A stretch of 64,000 nucleotides of DNA from Clostridia bacterium (GTDB taxonomy: Bacteria; Bacillota; Clostridia; Oscillospirales; Feifaniaceae): positions 145,764 to 209,763 of the forward strand of contig JAFWXR010000037.1 in the NCBI GenBank assembly GCA_017517965.1, written 5' to 3'. The notes beneath the pieces were generated by a model. The model did no database searches. It was not told the DNA's origin and saw only the letters and a list, made by a program, of their open reading frames with translations. Each line of letters begins with the position of its first letter. Position 1 is the stretch's first letter. Both the position numbers and the translations under genes were made by a program. Positions 21,061-59,265 of this stretch are shown piece by piece.

Positions 21061-21180
21061 CGGCAGGAGCAAGCCCCTGCCCTACAATAAATAATGAACA
21101 GGATTGGGATTTTCGGGACGTAGGGGACGGCGTCCCCTACAAATTTAATTACGAATTACGCATTACGAATTACGAATTAA
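21061..21180. repeat. Cluster of three small repeat types between tRNA-Glu and tcdA
   Basis: GGCAGGAGCAAGCCCCTGCC (hairpin), GTAGGGGACGGCGTCCCCTAC (palindrome) and a run of ATTACGAATTACGCATTACGAATT. The last of these encodes the C-terminal residues and stop of tcdA on the minus strand. Confidence 0.75.
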
Positions 21181-21864
21181 ATCTTTTATTACTTCTCCTG
21201 CGAGGATGAGGCCTGCGACGGACGGGACGAAGGAGACGCTTCCCGGAATGGAACGCCTTACACCTTTGTCTTCATCACTCTCGGTCGGTTTTATCGGCTC
21301 TTCCTTTGAATATACTACCTTGAGGCGTTTTACGCCTCTTTTTTTAAGCTCGCAGCGCATTACACGGGCGAGGGGACAGACCGATGTTTTGTAAATGTCG
21401 GTCACCTCAAATTTAGTCGGGTCGAGTTTATTGCCCGTGCCCATTGAACTGATTATCGGCACGCCTGCCTTTTGACACAATTCGACAAGGGCGATTTTTG
21501 ACGTTACCGTATCGATTGCATCTATCACGTAGTCAAACTGCGAAAAATCAAATTCCGTGTCGGGCGTAAAAAACAGATTGTGGGAATTGATTTTTACGTC
21601 GGGATTTATATCGCAAAGCCTTTCTTTTGCAACCTCAACCTTCGGTCTGCCGAGTGTGCTGTGAAGGGCAAATATCTGGCGGTTTAAGTTGGTCAGCGAG
21701 ACCGTGTCATTGTCGATAATATCGATTTCGCCGACACCGCACCGCACCAGCGCCTCTACGGCGTGACCGCCGACACCGCCTATGCCGAATACGGCTACAC
21801 GACAGTTTTTAAGTTTATTTATATCACCGAGCAGAAGTTCTGTTCTTGCAAATTGATGTGACAT
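21163..21864 (-). CDS. tcdA: tRNA threonylcarbamoyladenosine dehydratase (TcdA/CsdL)
   Basis: A 233-residue E1-like (ThiF/MoeB fold) enzyme that cyclises t6A37 of tRNA to ct6A using ATP. The nucleotide-binding loop VFGIGGVGGHAVEAL, the conserved DNDTVSLTNLNRQ and the segment DAIDTVTSK are typical. The C-terminal part SIPGSVSFVPSVAGLILAGEVI matches the family end. ATG 21864 is preferred over an upstream frame extension because GAGGTG sits 7 nt before it. It acts directly after TsaD (16709-17713). The last residues IRNS and the stop are made by repeat DNA. Confidence 0.93.
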   Translation of the reverse strand: MSHQFARTELLLGDINKLKNCRVAVFGIGGVGGHAVEALVRCGVGEIDIIDNDTVSLTNLNRQIFALHSTLGRPKVEVAKERLCDINPDVKINSHNLFFTPDTEFDFSQFDYVIDAIDTVTSKIALVELCQKAGVPIISSMGTGNKLDPTKFEVTDIYKTSVCPLARVMRCELKKRGVKRLKVVYSKEEPIKPTESDEDKGVRRSIPGSVSFVPSVAGLILAGEVIKDLIRNS

Positions 21865-21882: not shown

Positions 21883-21911
21883 ATTATAATTGAAATGCGG
21901 GGGCATTTCAA
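21883..21911 (-). promoter_or_regulatory. Promoter of tcdA with inverted repeat in the spacer
   Basis: Minus-strand TTGAAA (21911 to 21906), 17 bp, TATAAT (21888 to 21883). A near-palindrome TTGAAATGC / GCATTTCAA spans the -35 and spacer (21890-21911) and could be an operator or one more mini-hairpin. Confidence 0.65.
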
Positions 21912-21913
21912 AT

Positions 21914-22010
21914 AAATTCGGAATTCGGAATGCGGAATTCGGAATTGTGGTGGAAATTCCTTGCGGAATTTCAATTGGATGGATACCTTCTCCTCAAGGA
22001 GAAGGAATTG
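21914..22010. repeat. AATTCGG repeat and short hairpins
   Basis: AATTCGGAATTCGGAATGCGG and neighbours, GAAATTCC-TTGC-GGAATTTC, and CCTTCTCCTCAAGGAGAAGG. These are the same families as elsewhere in the window. Confidence 0.7.
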
Positions 22011-28908: not shown

Positions 28909-29068
28909 ATGAATTGCCTTACGGCATGAATTGAAATATGAAATTTCATGAATTGAAGTCTGTGACTTCGTGAATTGCACTAAAGTGCATTAAGGCAATT
29001 CAATTCATGGAGCGAAGCGAGAATTCATGGCGATAGCCAATTAATGACAACGACAGTTGTCAATTCAT
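28909..29068 (+). repeat. Hairpin-string repeat, copy A (ATGAATT joiner)
   Basis: Successive short stems joined by ATGAATT/AATTCAT: GCC-GGC, GAAAT-ATTTC, GAAGTC-GACTTC, GCACT-AGTGC, GGC-GCC and GACAAC-GTTGTC. The outer arms GAATTGCC and GGCAATTC can also pair with each other. This copy lacks the leading GATGATGAAAC hairpin and its fifth stem is degenerate. Confidence 0.85.
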
Positions 29069-29496: not shown

Positions 29497-29682
29497 ATGA
29501 TGATGAAACTTCTGTTTCATCATCAATGAATTGCCTTACGGCATGAATTGAAATTAAAATTTCATGAATAGAGCCTACGGCTCATGAATTGCACTGAGTG
29601 CATTAAGGCAATTCAATTCATGTTGTGATAACAACAATTCATGGCTTTAGCCAATTTATGACAACGTCAGTTGTCAATTCAT
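29497..29682 (+). repeat. Hairpin-string repeat, copy B
   Basis: Full-length form beginning GATGATGAAAC-TTCT-GTTTCATCATC. Then stems GCC-GGC, GAAATT-AATTTC, GAGCC-GGCTC, GCACT-AGTGC, TTGT-ACAA, GGC-GCC and GACAAC-GTTGTC, separated by ATGAATT or AATTCAT. Confidence 0.9.
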
Positions 29683-33434: not shown

Positions 33435-33484
33435 ACGCCGTCCCCTACGTTTTATAAGAAATTTCGGAAATATGAAAATAAGGG

Positions 33485-33513
33485 TTGACAAAACCGAAAT
33501 TTCCGAGTATAAT
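33485..33513 (+). promoter_or_regulatory. Consensus promoter at the start of the phage-like block
   Basis: A perfect TTGACA (33485), 17 bp, perfect TATAAT (33508). The spacer AAACCGAAATTTCCGAG is shared, but for one base, with the promoter at 41268. An inverted repeat GAAATTTCGG / CCGAAATTTC lies upstream and in the spacer. Confidence 0.85.
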
Positions 33514-33559
33514 ACAGATGATGAAACGAGAAGTTTCATTTTTTAAACTTAAAAAAACA

Positions 33560-33571
33560 GAACAAATGTAC
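33560..33571. promoter_or_regulatory. LexA-like half-matching site 1
   Basis: GAACAAATGTAC, one base from the Gram-positive SOS operator core GAAC-N4-GTTC. The same AACAGAACAAATGTA context recurs at 38864 and 41540, only in the phage-like block. Confidence 0.3.
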
Positions 33572-33682
33572 GATAAAGAAACAATCGCTTCTTTATCGGC
33601 GATATAAATTCCGTTGGAATTTGCGATATATACTGCGTATGCGATATATCCCTTCGGGATGCGATATGTTGGCTTCGCCAAC
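33571..33682 (+). repeat. Second hairpin-string repeat (GCGATAT joiner)
   Basis: CGATAAAGAA/TTCTTTATCG is followed by four mini-hairpins, AAATTCC-GTT-GGAATTT, ATAC-TGC-GTAT, ATCCC-TTC-GGGAT and GTTGGC-TTC-GCCAAC. Each is preceded by the identical heptamer GCGATAT (33599, 33623, 33641, 33661). It ends in an AAAGGAGG site. Confidence 0.9.
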
Positions 33683-33749
33683 GAGAAAGGAGGATAACAT
33701 CATTAATATTTACGATTGGTATGAACTGTGGGGTGGGCAGGAGAGAGAA

Positions 33750-33905
33750 ATGAGAAAAATAAACTGTCCCGTATGCGATACGGAGCTTTGTGAGGATGAC
33801 GACGTCTATTTGAACGGCCGTGACATTATCGGCTGTGCCTTCTGCGTGGACGAGCTGACCGTCTACGACCATCTCGAAAGAGAGGCGTACTATGGCTCGA
33901 ATTAA
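33750..33905 (+). CDS. Small zinc-ribbon-like protein (51 aa), phage-associated
   Basis: ATG 33750 after AGGAGAGAG. Two CxxC pairs (NCPVCD near the N terminus and GCAFCVD) suggest a structural zinc site. A strong AAAGGAGG at 33687 has no normal start codon at the right distance in this frame (only ATC/ATT), so an extended form is possible but unproven. It overlaps the DUF4373 gene by 14 bp. Confidence 0.55.
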   Translation: MRKINCPVCDTELCEDDDVYLNGRDIIGCAFCVDELTVYDHLEREAYYGSN

Positions 33906-34502: not shown

Positions 34503-34660
34503 ATGAATTGCCTTACGGCATGAATTGAAATTAAAATTTCATGAATAGAGCCTACGGCTCATGAATTGCACTAAAGTGCATTAAGGCAATTCAATTCATG
34601 TTGAGATAACAACAATTCATGGCTTTAGCCAATTCATGACAACGACAGTTGTCAATTCAT
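34503..34660 (+). repeat. Hairpin-string repeat, copy C
   Basis: The same stem order as copy B without the leading GATGATGAAAC hairpin; the fifth stem reads TTG-AGATAA-CAA. It sits between the DUF4373 gene and terL. Confidence 0.9.
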
Positions 34661-38803: not shown

Positions 38804-38973
38804 CAATTCGGAATTAAGGAAAGAAATTCCTGACGGAATTTCATTATTTTTAAAATAAAAACAGAACAAATGTACTTAAAATAATTCGGAATGCGGAATG
38901 CGTAATTCGGAATTATGGTAGAAACTTCTGTGGAAGTTTCGATTGAAAGTAATTTTAATTATGGAACGAAAAA
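38804..38973. repeat. Repeat-filled gap: AATTCGG runs, GAAATTCC hairpin and a LexA-like site
   Basis: AATTCGG runs at 38805 and 38883-38914; hairpins GAAATTCC/GGAATTTC (38824) and GAAACTTC/GAAGTTTC (38921). GAACAAATGTAC at 38864-38875 is the second LexA-like site, in the same AACAGAACAAATGTA context as at 33560. Confidence 0.6.
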
Positions 38974-40975: not shown

Positions 40976-41242
40976 ATGGCTAAAAAGAAGAATAAGAATT
41001 TAAAAGAATGTATGCAGTTTCTGCTGTCGGCTCAGTGCTCGGGTGAGGCGGTGCAGGCAATTAAAGAAAGGTTCTCCTTGAGCGATGACGAGGCTACGGG
41101 CACTATGCTCGTTGCCGCTGCTCTGCTCAGCAGGGCGCAAAACGGCGGTGACGTGTCGGCGGTAAAAGAAATCCGCTCTATTATCGACAACTCGGCTGAA
41201 CTTAAGGATAATAAACTTGAAATCGTTATTAAAAATGCGTGA
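40976..41242 (+). CDS. Small helical phage protein (88 aa)
   Basis: ATG 40976 follows GTGAGGACGGGAG from the R1 repeat. The product has a basic N terminus (AKKKNKNLKE), then LSDDEATGTMLVAAALLSRAQNGGDVSAVKEIRSIID. This resembles small conserved Clostridia-phage proteins that often lie near terminase genes, possibly a small terminase or scaffold helper. The assignment is weak; position between portal and scaffold supports a head-assembly role. Confidence 0.5.
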   Translation: MAKKKNKNLKECMQFLLSAQCSGEAVQAIKERFSLSDDEATGTMLVAAALLSRAQNGGDVSAVKEIRSIIDNSAELKDNKLEIVIKNA

Positions 41243-41267
41243 AATTTAGGAAAATCGAAAAAAGGTA

Positions 41268-41296
41268 TTGACAAAACCGAAAATTCCGAGTATACT
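41268..41296 (+). promoter_or_regulatory. Twin of the 33485 promoter, before the head genes
   Basis: TTGACA (41268), 17 bp, TATACT (41291). The spacer AAACCGAAAATTCCGAG differs by one base from that at 33485. It precedes the Cys-rich, scaffold and coat genes. Confidence 0.82.
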
Positions 41297-41485
41297 GATG
41301 ATGATGAAACGAAAGTTTCATCATCAATGAATTGCCTTACGGCATGAATTGAAATTGAAATTTCATGAATTGAACCTTACGGTTCATGAATTGCACTAAA
41401 GTGCATTAAGGCAATTCAATTCATGTTGCGATAACAACAATTCATGGCTTTAGCCAATTCATGACAACGATAGTTGTCAATTCAT
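41297..41485 (+). repeat. Hairpin-string repeat, copy D
   Basis: Full length. The fourth stem reads GAACC-TTAC-GGTTC instead of GAGCC-TAC-GGCTC, and the fifth TTGCGATAACAA: compensated or neutral changes relative to other copies. Confidence 0.9.
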
Positions 41486-41565: not shown

Positions 41566-41745
41566 ATGACAGAGGTTAAATCAGGCTGCAAGGGCTGTTT
41601 TTACTGGCGGGAGTTATACGACGATTTGTTTGCCTGCCACTATATGCTTCATACCGGGAAAAGACGTCCGTGTGAAGCGGGAAAGAAATGCAAGGTGATG
41701 ATGAAACGAGGAGTTTCATCATCAATGAATTGCCTCACGGCATGA
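41566..41745 (+). CDS. Small Cys-rich phage protein with a repeat-derived C terminus
   Basis: 59 residues from ATG 41566 (GGAAAGTGAG upstream). The core SGCKGCFYWRELYDDLFACHYMLHTGKRRPCEAGKKC is the pattern of small conserved zinc-finger-like proteins in Clostridia prophages. From ~41697 the frame runs into hairpin-string copy E, so the last ~15 residues (MMKRGVSSSMNCLTA) and the stop are encoded by the repeat. The native end was probably near KKCKV. Confidence 0.6.
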   Translation: MTEVKSGCKGCFYWRELYDDLFACHYMLHTGKRRPCEAGKKCKVMMKRGVSSSMNCLTA

Positions 41746-41883
41746 ATTGAAATTTAAAATTTCATGAATAGAGCCTACGGCTCATGAATTGCACTAAAGT
41801 GCATTAAGGCAATTCAATTCATGTTGTGATAACAACAATTCATGGCTTTAGCCAATTCATGACAACGACAGTTGTCAATTCAT
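41697..41883 (+). repeat. Hairpin-string repeat, copy E
   Basis: Full length, with first stem GATGATGAAAC / GTTTCATCATC and second GCC-TCAC-GGC. It begins inside the preceding gene. Confidence 0.9.
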
Positions 41884-42582: not shown

Positions 42583-42655
42583 GCTTTATCAATTCGGAAT
42601 TCGGAATGCGGAATTCGGAATTATGGAAGAAATTTCTTACGAAATTTCAATTGTA
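42583..42655. repeat. AATTCGG repeat and GAAATTTC hairpin between scaffold and coat
   Basis: AATTCGGAATTCGGAATGCGGAATTCGG, then GAAATTTC-TTAC-GAAATTTC. Confidence 0.7.
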
Positions 42656-43500: not shown

Positions 43501-43753
43501 ATGATGATGAAACGAGAGTTTCATCATCAATGAATTGCCTTACGGCATGAATTGAAATTGAAATTTCATGAATAGAGCCTACGGCTCATGAATTGCACTA
43601 AAGTGCATTAAGGCAATTCAATTCGTGTTGTGATAACAACAATTCATGGTGGTACACCAATTCATGACAACGAAGTTGTCAATTCATCTAACAATCCCTC
43701 CATCACCTTCGGTGTTGGAGGGAAGTGAAAACAGGGTTCCCATTGCGAGAACG
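43501..43753 (+). repeat. Hairpin-string repeat copy F plus short repeats and a deleted R1
   Basis: Copy F (43501-43687) starts one base after the coat stop and has the stem GGTG-GTA-CACC in the GGC-GCC position. It is followed by CCCTCCATCACCTTCGGTG (43695) and by an internally deleted R1 (43731-43753), ACAGGGTTCCC...GAGAACGA, which leads into the next gene. Confidence 0.85.
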
Positions 43754-54068: not shown

Positions 54069-54073
54069 ATTTA

Positions 54074-54190
54074 ATTCGGAATGCGTAATGCGGAATTCGG
54101 AATTATGGTAGAAATTCCTTGACGGAATTTCATTTAAATAATTTTTGATGCAATCAAAAATTTTCCTTAATTACGAATTACGAATTCCTA
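54074..54190. repeat. AATTCGG runs and two mini-hairpins
   Basis: AATTCGGAATGCGTAATGCGG, GAAATTCC/GGAATTTC, AATTTTTGAT-GCA-ATCAAAAATT, and a reverse AATTACGAATTACGAATTCC run that encodes the end of larA. Confidence 0.75.
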
Positions 54191-55459
54191 ATTCCGAATT
54201 ACAACCGACACTCCGTCGGGGATTGCTGTTATAGATGCATTTTCGCCGACAAGTTTTTTAGCCATTTCGAGTGCTTCGGGGAGTGAGTGTGCAGGCGTCA
54301 TATGGAATGACTTTATGAGGCTGTCGGGCGCATCCGAAATATAGATGACCGTTGCCTTGAGCAGTATACGGCATAAAATCTGCGATTCCCACTGGTCAGC
54401 GATAGTTTCGTCCCTGTCACGCTTTAAAATGGAGTCGTAAATTTTCTGTGTATCGGGCTCGTCATTGAAGGTATTATAGAAGCCTTCACCGCCGTGACCG
54501 TCACTTGACGATGCAAGCATTATGATGACACCGCCGTCTTTTACGGTAGCCTCAGCCGCCGTCATACCCTTAACAGCCTGATATATATTCTGGTCAAGCG
54601 GATAACCGCCGTTTGTTGTAATTACGATGTCGGAGGGGACAGCCTTTGCACCGCACAGACCTGATAAGAATTCAACACCCTTTGCGTGAGCAGCCTCAAG
54701 GTCACCCGCAACGGCGTAGATAGCATCCTTTTTCTCGTTTATGACCACGTTTACGATGTAACACAGACCTGCCGTTTTAGCGGCGTAGAGCATATCAATG
54801 TGAAGGGGATTGCCCTCGATTATACCCGTTCTCGCCTTATCCGAAGCGATAAACTCGGCACAGTGGTTTGCAAGCACCGTTCTGCGTGCCGCAACGCCGG
54901 GCAGAACGCTCTTTCTTCCGCCCGAGAAGCCTGCGAAAAAGTGAGGCTCGATAAAGCCTTCGGATACGAGCAGGTCAGCCTCATAGGCGATTTTATTTAT
55001 GACACATTCACCGCCCGAGGGGAGTGTGCCGATATTTACAAGCATATCCTCGTCAAGACAGTCGTGGACGTATATTTTTTCGTTGTTTACAATGTCCTCA
55101 CCGAACTTGAAAACGAGTTCATCCCTCGTCGTGCCTCTGTGAAAGCCCGTTGCAATGAGTATCGTTATGTCGGCATCGGGGTTGCCCTGCCTGATTTCTT
55201 CAAGCATGGAGGGCATAATCACCTTGCTCGGTACAGGGCGAGTATGGTCGGAGGCGATGATGCAGACCTTTTTCTTGCCCTTTGCAAGTTCACAAAGCCT
55301 CGGTGAGCCGATGGGGTTAGCCATAGCCTCACGCACGAGTGTCGTACCGTCCTTTTCGCATTTGTAGTCGTGAATGCCCGACGTCAGAACGGCGGCAAGA
55401 TTTTCGTTTTCGAAATCGTAGGTAACGGTGTCTTTACCGTAAGGAAAATTAACTTTCAT
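54188..55459 (-). CDS. larA: Lactate racemase family protein (LarA-like, nickel-pincer type)
   Basis: 423 residues. The LarA landmarks are SDHTRPVPSKVIMPSML, ATGFHRGTTRDE, HDCLDEDML, IEPHFFAGFSGGRKSVLPG and GHGGEGFY. The family isomerises lactate or other 2-hydroxy acids with a nickel-pincer nucleotide. Several LarA homologues act on other substrates, so specificity is open. The cofactor genes larB, larC and larE are not in the window. ATG 55459, with AAAGGA upstream, is preferred to a TTG two codons earlier. It overlaps rluD-type by 11 bp. The final VIRN and stop are repeat-encoded. Confidence 0.85.
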   Translation of the reverse strand: MKVNFPYGKDTVTYDFENENLAAVLTSGIHDYKCEKDGTTLVREAMANPIGSPRLCELAKGKKKVCIIASDHTRPVPSKVIMPSMLEEIRQGNPDADITILIATGFHRGTTRDELVFKFGEDIVNNEKIYVHDCLDEDMLVNIGTLPSGGECVINKIAYEADLLVSEGFIEPHFFAGFSGGRKSVLPGVAARRTVLANHCAEFIASDKARTGIIEGNPLHIDMLYAAKTAGLCYIVNVVINEKKDAIYAVAGDLEAAHAKGVEFLSGLCGAKAVPSDIVITTNGGYPLDQNIYQAVKGMTAAEATVKDGGVIIMLASSSDGHGGEGFYNTFNDEPDTQKIYDSILKRDRDETIADQWESQILCRILLKATVIYISDAPDSLIKSFHMTPAHSLPEALEMAKKLVGENASITAIPDGVSVVIRN

Positions 55460-59094: not shown

Positions 59095-59265
59095 GCACAT
59101 TTGTGCATGAATTGGCTTTGCCATGAATTGTGCTGACGCACATGAATTGAATTGCCACAATGCACCGTCAGGTGCAATTCATGAGCCGTTTGGCTCAATT
59201 CACGAAATCGTAGATTTCAATTCACGCCGTAAGGCAATTCATTGATGAAAACGAAAGTTTTCATC
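59095..59265 (-). repeat. Hairpin-string repeat, copy G (minus strand, most divergent)
   Basis: Read on the minus strand: GATGAAAAC-GTTTTCATC, GCC-GGC, GAAATC-GATTTC, GAGCC-GGCTC, GCACC-GGTGC, TGTGC-GCACA, TGGC-GCCA and TGCACA-TGTGCA, with (A/G)TGAATT or AATTCATG joiners. Most stems differ from the plus-strand copies but stay paired. It starts at the radical SAM stop codon. Confidence 0.88.

Follow-up and report, generated by a model that had tools for sequence, protein, structure and literature searches.

A string of heptamers and hairpins in a clostridial genome

In the 64-kb window (the whole stretch of DNA analysed here), the heptamer GCGATAT recurs at short intervals upstream of a small gene, with hairpins lying between its occurrences. 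What is this string, and what places it where it is? An earlier note on this DNA described four short hairpins, each preceded by an exact GCGATAT, and a motif search of the window bears this out, locating four exact heptamers on the + strand and a perfect hairpin directly 3' of every one (Table 1). Over the window as a whole, GCGATAT is seen 16 times versus 8.4 expected. Heptamers that occur four times within 110 bp on one strand are confined to GCGATAT, ATGAATT/TGAATTG and AATTCGG-type tandem repeats, along with a few low-complexity stretches rich in A, T or AAGTA.

The string is flanked by a ddl-like ORF (named from its sequence) and by prophage genes, and does not lie inside a 23S rRNA gene. 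In a Pfam search, the downstream order was a small ORF without a match, a Lin1244_N protein, and a phage terminase; no gene of family PF05635, to which we return below, was found among the ORFs directly downstream. Searches for DNA similarity between the feature and phages or plasmids returned nothing. Given the position of the consensus promoter, the string would make up most of a leader of ~190 nt. The frame of the small ORF stays open upstream as far as the Shine-Dalgarno sequence, with in-frame ATC and ATT codons at 33699 and 33702. This strong Shine-Dalgarno sequence is thus followed within 8 nt by ATC/ATT codons and only at 33750 by a first ATG, and a non-AUG start or a silent leader is possible at 33683-33704. 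Separately, a segment AAAAACAGAACAAATGTA at 33560-33571, which resembles a LexA/SOS box (GAAC-N4-GTWC), appears again near 38868 and 41543, downstream of a consensus promoter.

Table 1. Features of the GCGATAT string and of related elements in the window.
Feature	Position	Strand	Remark
sigma-70 promoter TTGACA-17-TATAAT	33485..33513	+	12/12 consensus match; promoter with hairpin recurs at 41240-41321
GATGATGAAAC-hairpin-GTTTCAT and T run	33517..33544	+	identical hairpin is the flank hairpin of ATGAATT elements
Flank hairpin, arms CGATAAAGAA...TTCTTTATCG	33571..33598	+	10 bp, abuts first heptamer; a flank hairpin here is the rule in relatives
Joiner 1, GCGATAT	33599..33605	+	exact match
Hairpin 1, AAATTCC-GTT-GGAATTT	33606..33622	+	perfect; relatives with identical arms
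Joiner 2, GCGATAT	33623..33629	+	exact match
Hairpin 2, ATAC-TGC-GTAT	33630..33640	+	perfect
Joiner 3, GCGATAT	33641..33647	+	exact match
Hairpin 3, ATCCC-TTC-GGGAT	33648..33660	+	perfect
Joiner 4, GCGATAT	33661..33667	+	exact match
Hairpin 4, GTTGGC-TTC-GCCAAC	33668..33682	+	perfect
GAGAAAGGAGG, first part of the middle segment, acting as Shine-Dalgarno sequence	33683..33693	+	from anatomy of relatives
Left half matched by covariance model R1	33599..33691	+	75.4 bits, E 2e-14
Small ORF, first ATG (MRKINCPVCDTELCEDDD...)	33750..33905	+	no Pfam match
Mirrored ATGAATT...AATTCAT elements (seven)	28909-29068, 29526-29682, 34503-34660, 41327-41485, 41725-41883, 43530-43687, 59107-59242		
Tandem heptamer arrays without hairpins (AATTCGG/AATGCGG/AATTACG type)	21141-21189, 21910-21952, 38880-38918, 42584-42630, 54070-54108, 54164-54206		

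Relatives of the string

The earlier note proposed a genome search for such arrays and named uniqueness of the site, with absence from related genomes, as grounds for giving up its reading. No second copy of the array was found in the window's own genome (75.7% complete) or in seven other genomes of the host family, but a pattern search that included the first hairpin recovered more than 119 exact-pattern stretches in other gut Clostridia, so that the string is abundant in relatives. All of the matches listed derive from Clostridia/Oscillospiraceae-type MAGs, nearly all of animal-gut origin, apart from one viral contig; in the loci gathered with this pattern (L130-L248), conservation of the first hairpin is partly by construction. 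A covariance model (R1), built from 48 left halves with the window left out, recovered the window copy (score in Table 1), which on sequence grounds is a member of the GCGATAT hairpin-string family. A search of a phylum sample with the GCGATAT array alone returned coding repeats and one hairpin match and was set aside as an unhelpful route to relatives. A first viral scan likewise gave mostly coding repeats, with a single true relative (L036). An empty site for the window was sought among viral contigs, where the one relative (L379) breaks off before the position of the array.

The sole relevant match in Rfam was Gut-1 RNA (RF01706), reported as a noncoding RNA of the human gut (PMC2864571); the window covers the whole model at 34.1 bits (E 2e-4) and misses the cut-off of 50. 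Gut-1 RNA is the nearest described relative of the string. RF01706 matches 125 of 295 genomes of the window's order, with up to 15 scored copies each, and many of these copies lie no more than 150 nt from a contig end, where dispersed repeats, which break assemblies, would be expected.

Complete copies are mirrored

Complete copies consist, in order, of a flank hairpin, four GCGATAT-hairpin units, a middle segment GAGAAAAGGAATTTATATC, and three to four ATATCGC-hairpin units. This mirrored form was found in 79 of 129 elements, 60 of the 129 carry four GCGATAT and four ATATCGC heptamers, and about 40 consist of the left half only. Pairing is possible between the heptamers of the left and right halves and likewise between the start GATATAAATTCC and the middle GGAATTTATATC, and the end of the middle segment complements the start of the element. 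In the region of the window string, no ATATCGC right half was found 3' of 33667, and the window copy is therefore a left half only. The earlier note correctly ended the string in a ribosome-binding site but did not recognise this as the beginning of the element's own middle segment, which starts GAGAAAAGGA in complete copies; that the string is half of a palindromic element, and that such elements are linked to PF05635 genes, likewise escaped it.

It proposed to test whether the intervening segments are always palindromic, and most of them are: of 304 distinct inter-joiner segments, 79% have a perfect stem, 3 bp or longer, that abuts both joiners, versus 2.3% of shuffles. In the R1-family alignment, two-sided compensatory changes occur at 9 of 21 consensus pairs while the heptamers are fixed. 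Stem mismatches in left halves, read on the + (transcript) strand, are mostly A.C (15, versus 2 G.T), and those in right halves mostly G.T (11, versus 2 A.C), so that in both halves it is the ATATCGC-reading strand that accepts wobble. The loops of this strand frequently have the form GNA or GNNA, and loops of these forms are stable in DNA. The asymmetry speaks against a single sense-strand RNA and would suit single-stranded DNA, but it is only suggestive because the segments share ancestry.

The elements are dispersed and intergenic, their usual sites being 5' leaders or gene ends, and 17 of 39 half elements end in a Shine-Dalgarno sequence with a start codon after it, as half copies will often do because the element middle contains AAGGA. 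Half copies such as that of the window look like ends co-opted as leaders. The same leader features could be taken as the signature of a cis-acting or free regulatory RNA of the Gut-1 type, whose task would be to stabilise or regulate the mRNA downstream, the string having spread on account of a host function instead of mobility. A perfect promoter upstream, a Shine-Dalgarno sequence at the end of the string, a leader that folds better than shuffles (z = -2.6), the half elements running into start codons, and the listing of Gut-1 as a noncoding RNA are all in keeping with such a role, yet genomes differ in copy number, from 0 to 15 or more, and many copies lie at contig ends, the only gene family that recurs downstream is PF05635, and the excess of A.C over G.T in left-half stems is the opposite of what a sense RNA would lead one to expect. 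A regulatory RNA is thus an unlikely explanation of the string.

A four-helix-bundle gene often accompanies complete copies

Of the ORFs whose start lies no more than 140 nt from an element, 21 fall into one protein cluster, whereas other clusters hold at most two, and 18 of these 21 ORFs start 5-19 nt past the last heptamer. The cluster corresponds to PF05635 (23S_rRNA_IVP; the S23/IVP four-helix bundle, hereafter 4HB; E 2.7e-23 in Pfam), for which 2rld is a related solved structure, and the gene is under purifying selection (median dN/dS 0.08 over 41 pairs). DNA homology between loci mostly spans from about the first heptamer to the 4HB stop codon, with unrelated flanks; L134 and L166 share 86% identity over 536 bp, and loci with a common insertion site, e.g., at rlmD, align further upstream too. 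To judge from these alignments, element and gene are one inherited unit that recurs in unrelated flanks. In the window's order, an inverted 6-mer array lies in the 300 bp upstream of 46 of 67 PF05635 genes, compared with 19 of 399 control windows (odds ratio 44, p 6e-32).

The only PF05635 gene of the window's own genome (L349; G000:C43:115005-115319) has a complete ATGAATT element on its 5' side and a prfB-like gene on its 3' side; gene and element sit inserted between a promoter and the prfB-like gene. A 4HB gene of the GCGATAT class was not found in this assembly, which is 76% complete.

Another reading is that the string is a MITE or REP-like sequence moved by a DNA transposase (DDE or Y1/RAYT), with the 4HB gene as a passenger. 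The elements are dispersed, palindromic, multi-copy, and intergenic with a REP-like anatomy, and their hairpins are strand-asymmetric with GNA/GNNA-type loops on one strand; however, PF05635 is the only recurring linked gene, a target-site duplication was not found, and Y1 transposases do not co-occur with PF05635. The 76% complete genome of the window (G000) yielded no Y1 transposase, and Y1 is present in 14 of 34 PF05635-positive versus 12 of 25 PF05635-negative genomes (p 0.79). For reverse transcriptase, the corresponding numbers are 10 of 34 and 9 of 25, and two genomes with 6-7 PF05635 copies (G417 and G439) have neither enzyme. A transposase-driven repeat with a passenger gene is accordingly quite unlikely, and a Y1 transposase or reverse transcriptase as obligate helper was rejected for want of co-occurrence with PF05635. 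The lack of co-occurrence and the multi-copy genomes without both enzymes imply that spread would rely on replication or on another helper.

Heptamer classes and a common insertion site

Across genomes, the heptamers of these elements include ATGAATT, GTGATGT, GTGATGC, GTGATAT, AATGAAG, GTGAAGT, RTGAAAT, AGCTAAA, and TGATATA, and within each element the heptamer equals that of its mirror partner. Identity among 4HB proteins is 76% within versus 54% between heptamer classes (0 of 5000 permutations, mostly with one locus per genome), indicating that each family's heptamer is paired with its own 4HB clade. Such co-variation is expected from linkage alone and is therefore no proof of recognition.

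The joiners GCGATAT, TCGATAT, GTGATAT, GTGAAAT (of Gut-1), and ATGAATT all match NYGAWWT, as if a single unit had diverged into several, and the earlier note finds no support where it calls the joiner of the window string unrelated to ATGAATT. It was right that the two share a design, since ATGAATT and GCGATAT elements are alike in mirrored anatomy, in an insertion hotspot at the 3' end of rlmD, and in the kind of companion gene. Its broader idea, that one process operates with family-specific joiners, was largely right: there is one kind of element with a different heptamer in each family, although the joiners look related.

At the 3' end of rlmD, GCGATAT, ATGAATT, TCGATAT, or GTGATAT elements occupy the same place in different genomes. 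In these insertions the left arm of the flank hairpin is rlmD coding sequence, and empty sites (L279 and L311) lack the extended hairpin. These gene ends were rejected as a clean insertion assay: the boundary is ambiguous because the right arm overlaps pre-existing codons, and no clean target-site duplication was found in the empty/filled comparisons. On one contig (L310/L311; G546:C29), two rlmD paralogues lie 3.5 kb apart and a GCGATAT string is present at the 3' end of one only.

Several of the ATGAATT elements in the window carry a flank hairpin TGATGATGAAAC...GTTTCATCATCA, and their class is that found before the PF05635 gene of the same genome. The promoter cassettes at 33457-33539 and 41240-41321 are paralogous (83% identity), and in the latter two TTTCAT copies enclose an ATGAATT element, whereas the former has no element. 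Their use as an empty/filled pair was abandoned, since a deletion between the TTTCAT repeats fits equally well; like the rlmD ends, the pair gives no unique insertion boundary or direction. Tandem arrays without hairpins are also present in the window, with six at lag 7 and none or one at each of the other lags from 5 to 12.

PF05635 genes and heptamers in other phyla

Heptamer repeats also accompany PF05635 genes far from the Clostridia. At 24 PF05635 loci sampled from plasmids of Cyanobacteriota, Bacteroidota, Spirochaetota, and Chloroflexota and from two gut phage contigs, lag-7 repeats are present in 13 upstream and 15 downstream flanks, with no other lag from 4 to 12 represented; for annotated genes on three of these plasmids, the counts were 1 of 115 upstream and 1 of 114 downstream. 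Inverted 9-mers are common to the upstream and downstream arrays at 17 of the 24 loci, many of which are from Nostocales and hence not independent. The arrays in these phyla are tandem heptamers without hairpins. In plasmids of Anabaena, Nostoc, and Pseudanabaena (L436, L438, and L439), the PF05635 gene lies between cas2 and cas1 or beside cas1.

A mutational by-product, in which template switching perfects palindromes and slippage multiplies heptamers with no element and no protein involved, would be consistent with near-perfect stems and with the polymerase slippage to which two reports ascribe heptamer over-representation (PMC4679880; PMC4692102), but it is very improbable because mirrored halves with matching heptamers, a middle segment conserved across many genomes, and a close link with a single protein family across several phyla would all be unexpected.

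A model for the window string

The explanation that we favor, and consider rather likely, is that the window string is a left half, itself non-autonomous, of a palindromic element that is dispersed, is probably mobile and often carries a 4HB (PF05635) companion gene. The 4HB protein would bind the heptamer/hairpin string in the form of RNA or single-stranded DNA and would help to spread the unit, via host replication or another trans-acting enzyme. Nucleic-acid binding by the 4HB protein is plausible by analogy, given that Xanthomonas S23p forms a pentameric ring from four-helix bundles (as cited in PMC4990558) and that Avd of diversity-generating retroelements is a PF05635 relative (PMC10053308). 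The window copy would either have lost the right half and the gene or never have possessed them, and may now act as 5' leader to a small gene of prophage type, supplying the Shine-Dalgarno sequence of that leader.

More tentatively, and with slightly less than even confidence, we suggest that minimal mobile elements, each a lone S23/IVP gene flanked by inverted arrays of its cognate heptamer without a transposase or reverse transcriptase of its own, form a class that spans several phyla, that this class is a main source of unexplained bacterial heptamer repeats, and that the window string is an orphan end of one such element. Its arrays would be tandem in Cyanobacteria, Bacteroidota, and Spirochaetota and hairpin-interspersed in gut Clostridia. 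Two old puzzles, namely the function of the S23/IVP four-helix bundle and the origin of abundant bacterial heptamer repeats, would be joined in this way, and the consistent physical link, the heptamer-protein co-variation, and the lag of exactly 7 render both testable. Further, the Gut-1 RNA of Rfam would be recast as one family of a dispersed element instead of an isolated noncoding RNA.

Comparison with known systems

Gut-1 (RF01706), from the same gut-Clostridia order, has three hairpins with a UGAAAU joiner, and its full model is matched by the window. The string, which lies in a leader with a promoter and a Shine-Dalgarno sequence, differs from it in scoring below the cut-off and in having GCGATAT in place of Gut-1's GUGAAAU; moreover, Gut-1 was described as a stand-alone noncoding RNA of the human gut, whereas the copies here are dispersed repeats whose complete form is palindromic and 4HB-linked. 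The intervening sequences of 23S rRNA with an S23p ORF are similar in their selfish appearance, inverted-repeat structure, and PF05635 ORF, and PMC4990558 treats their origin and function as unexplained and mobility as proposed. The elements described here lie in leaders and gene ends and not in rRNA, and heptamer-hairpin strings do not feature in the descriptions of intervening sequences consulted. Heptanucleotide repeats (TAACTGA of Beggiatoaceae, GGGNATC of Xanthomonas and Nostoc, and cyanobacterial STRR) share the 7-base unit, intergenic placement, and frequent position before start codons; in the portions of the literature consulted they are ascribed to slippage or regulation, with neither hairpins between units nor a PF05635 link described. 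A partial search found no literature that joins S23p elements with heptamer repeats, which is weak evidence.

REP sequences and BIMEs, with their RAYT proteins, are inverted hairpin repeats, dispersed and intergenic, as are the elements here, which differ in having no Y1 association and a 4HB protein as the product of the companion gene. Diversity-generating retroelements resemble them through Avd and differ in that no reverse transcriptase co-occurs here (10/34 versus 9/25, as above).
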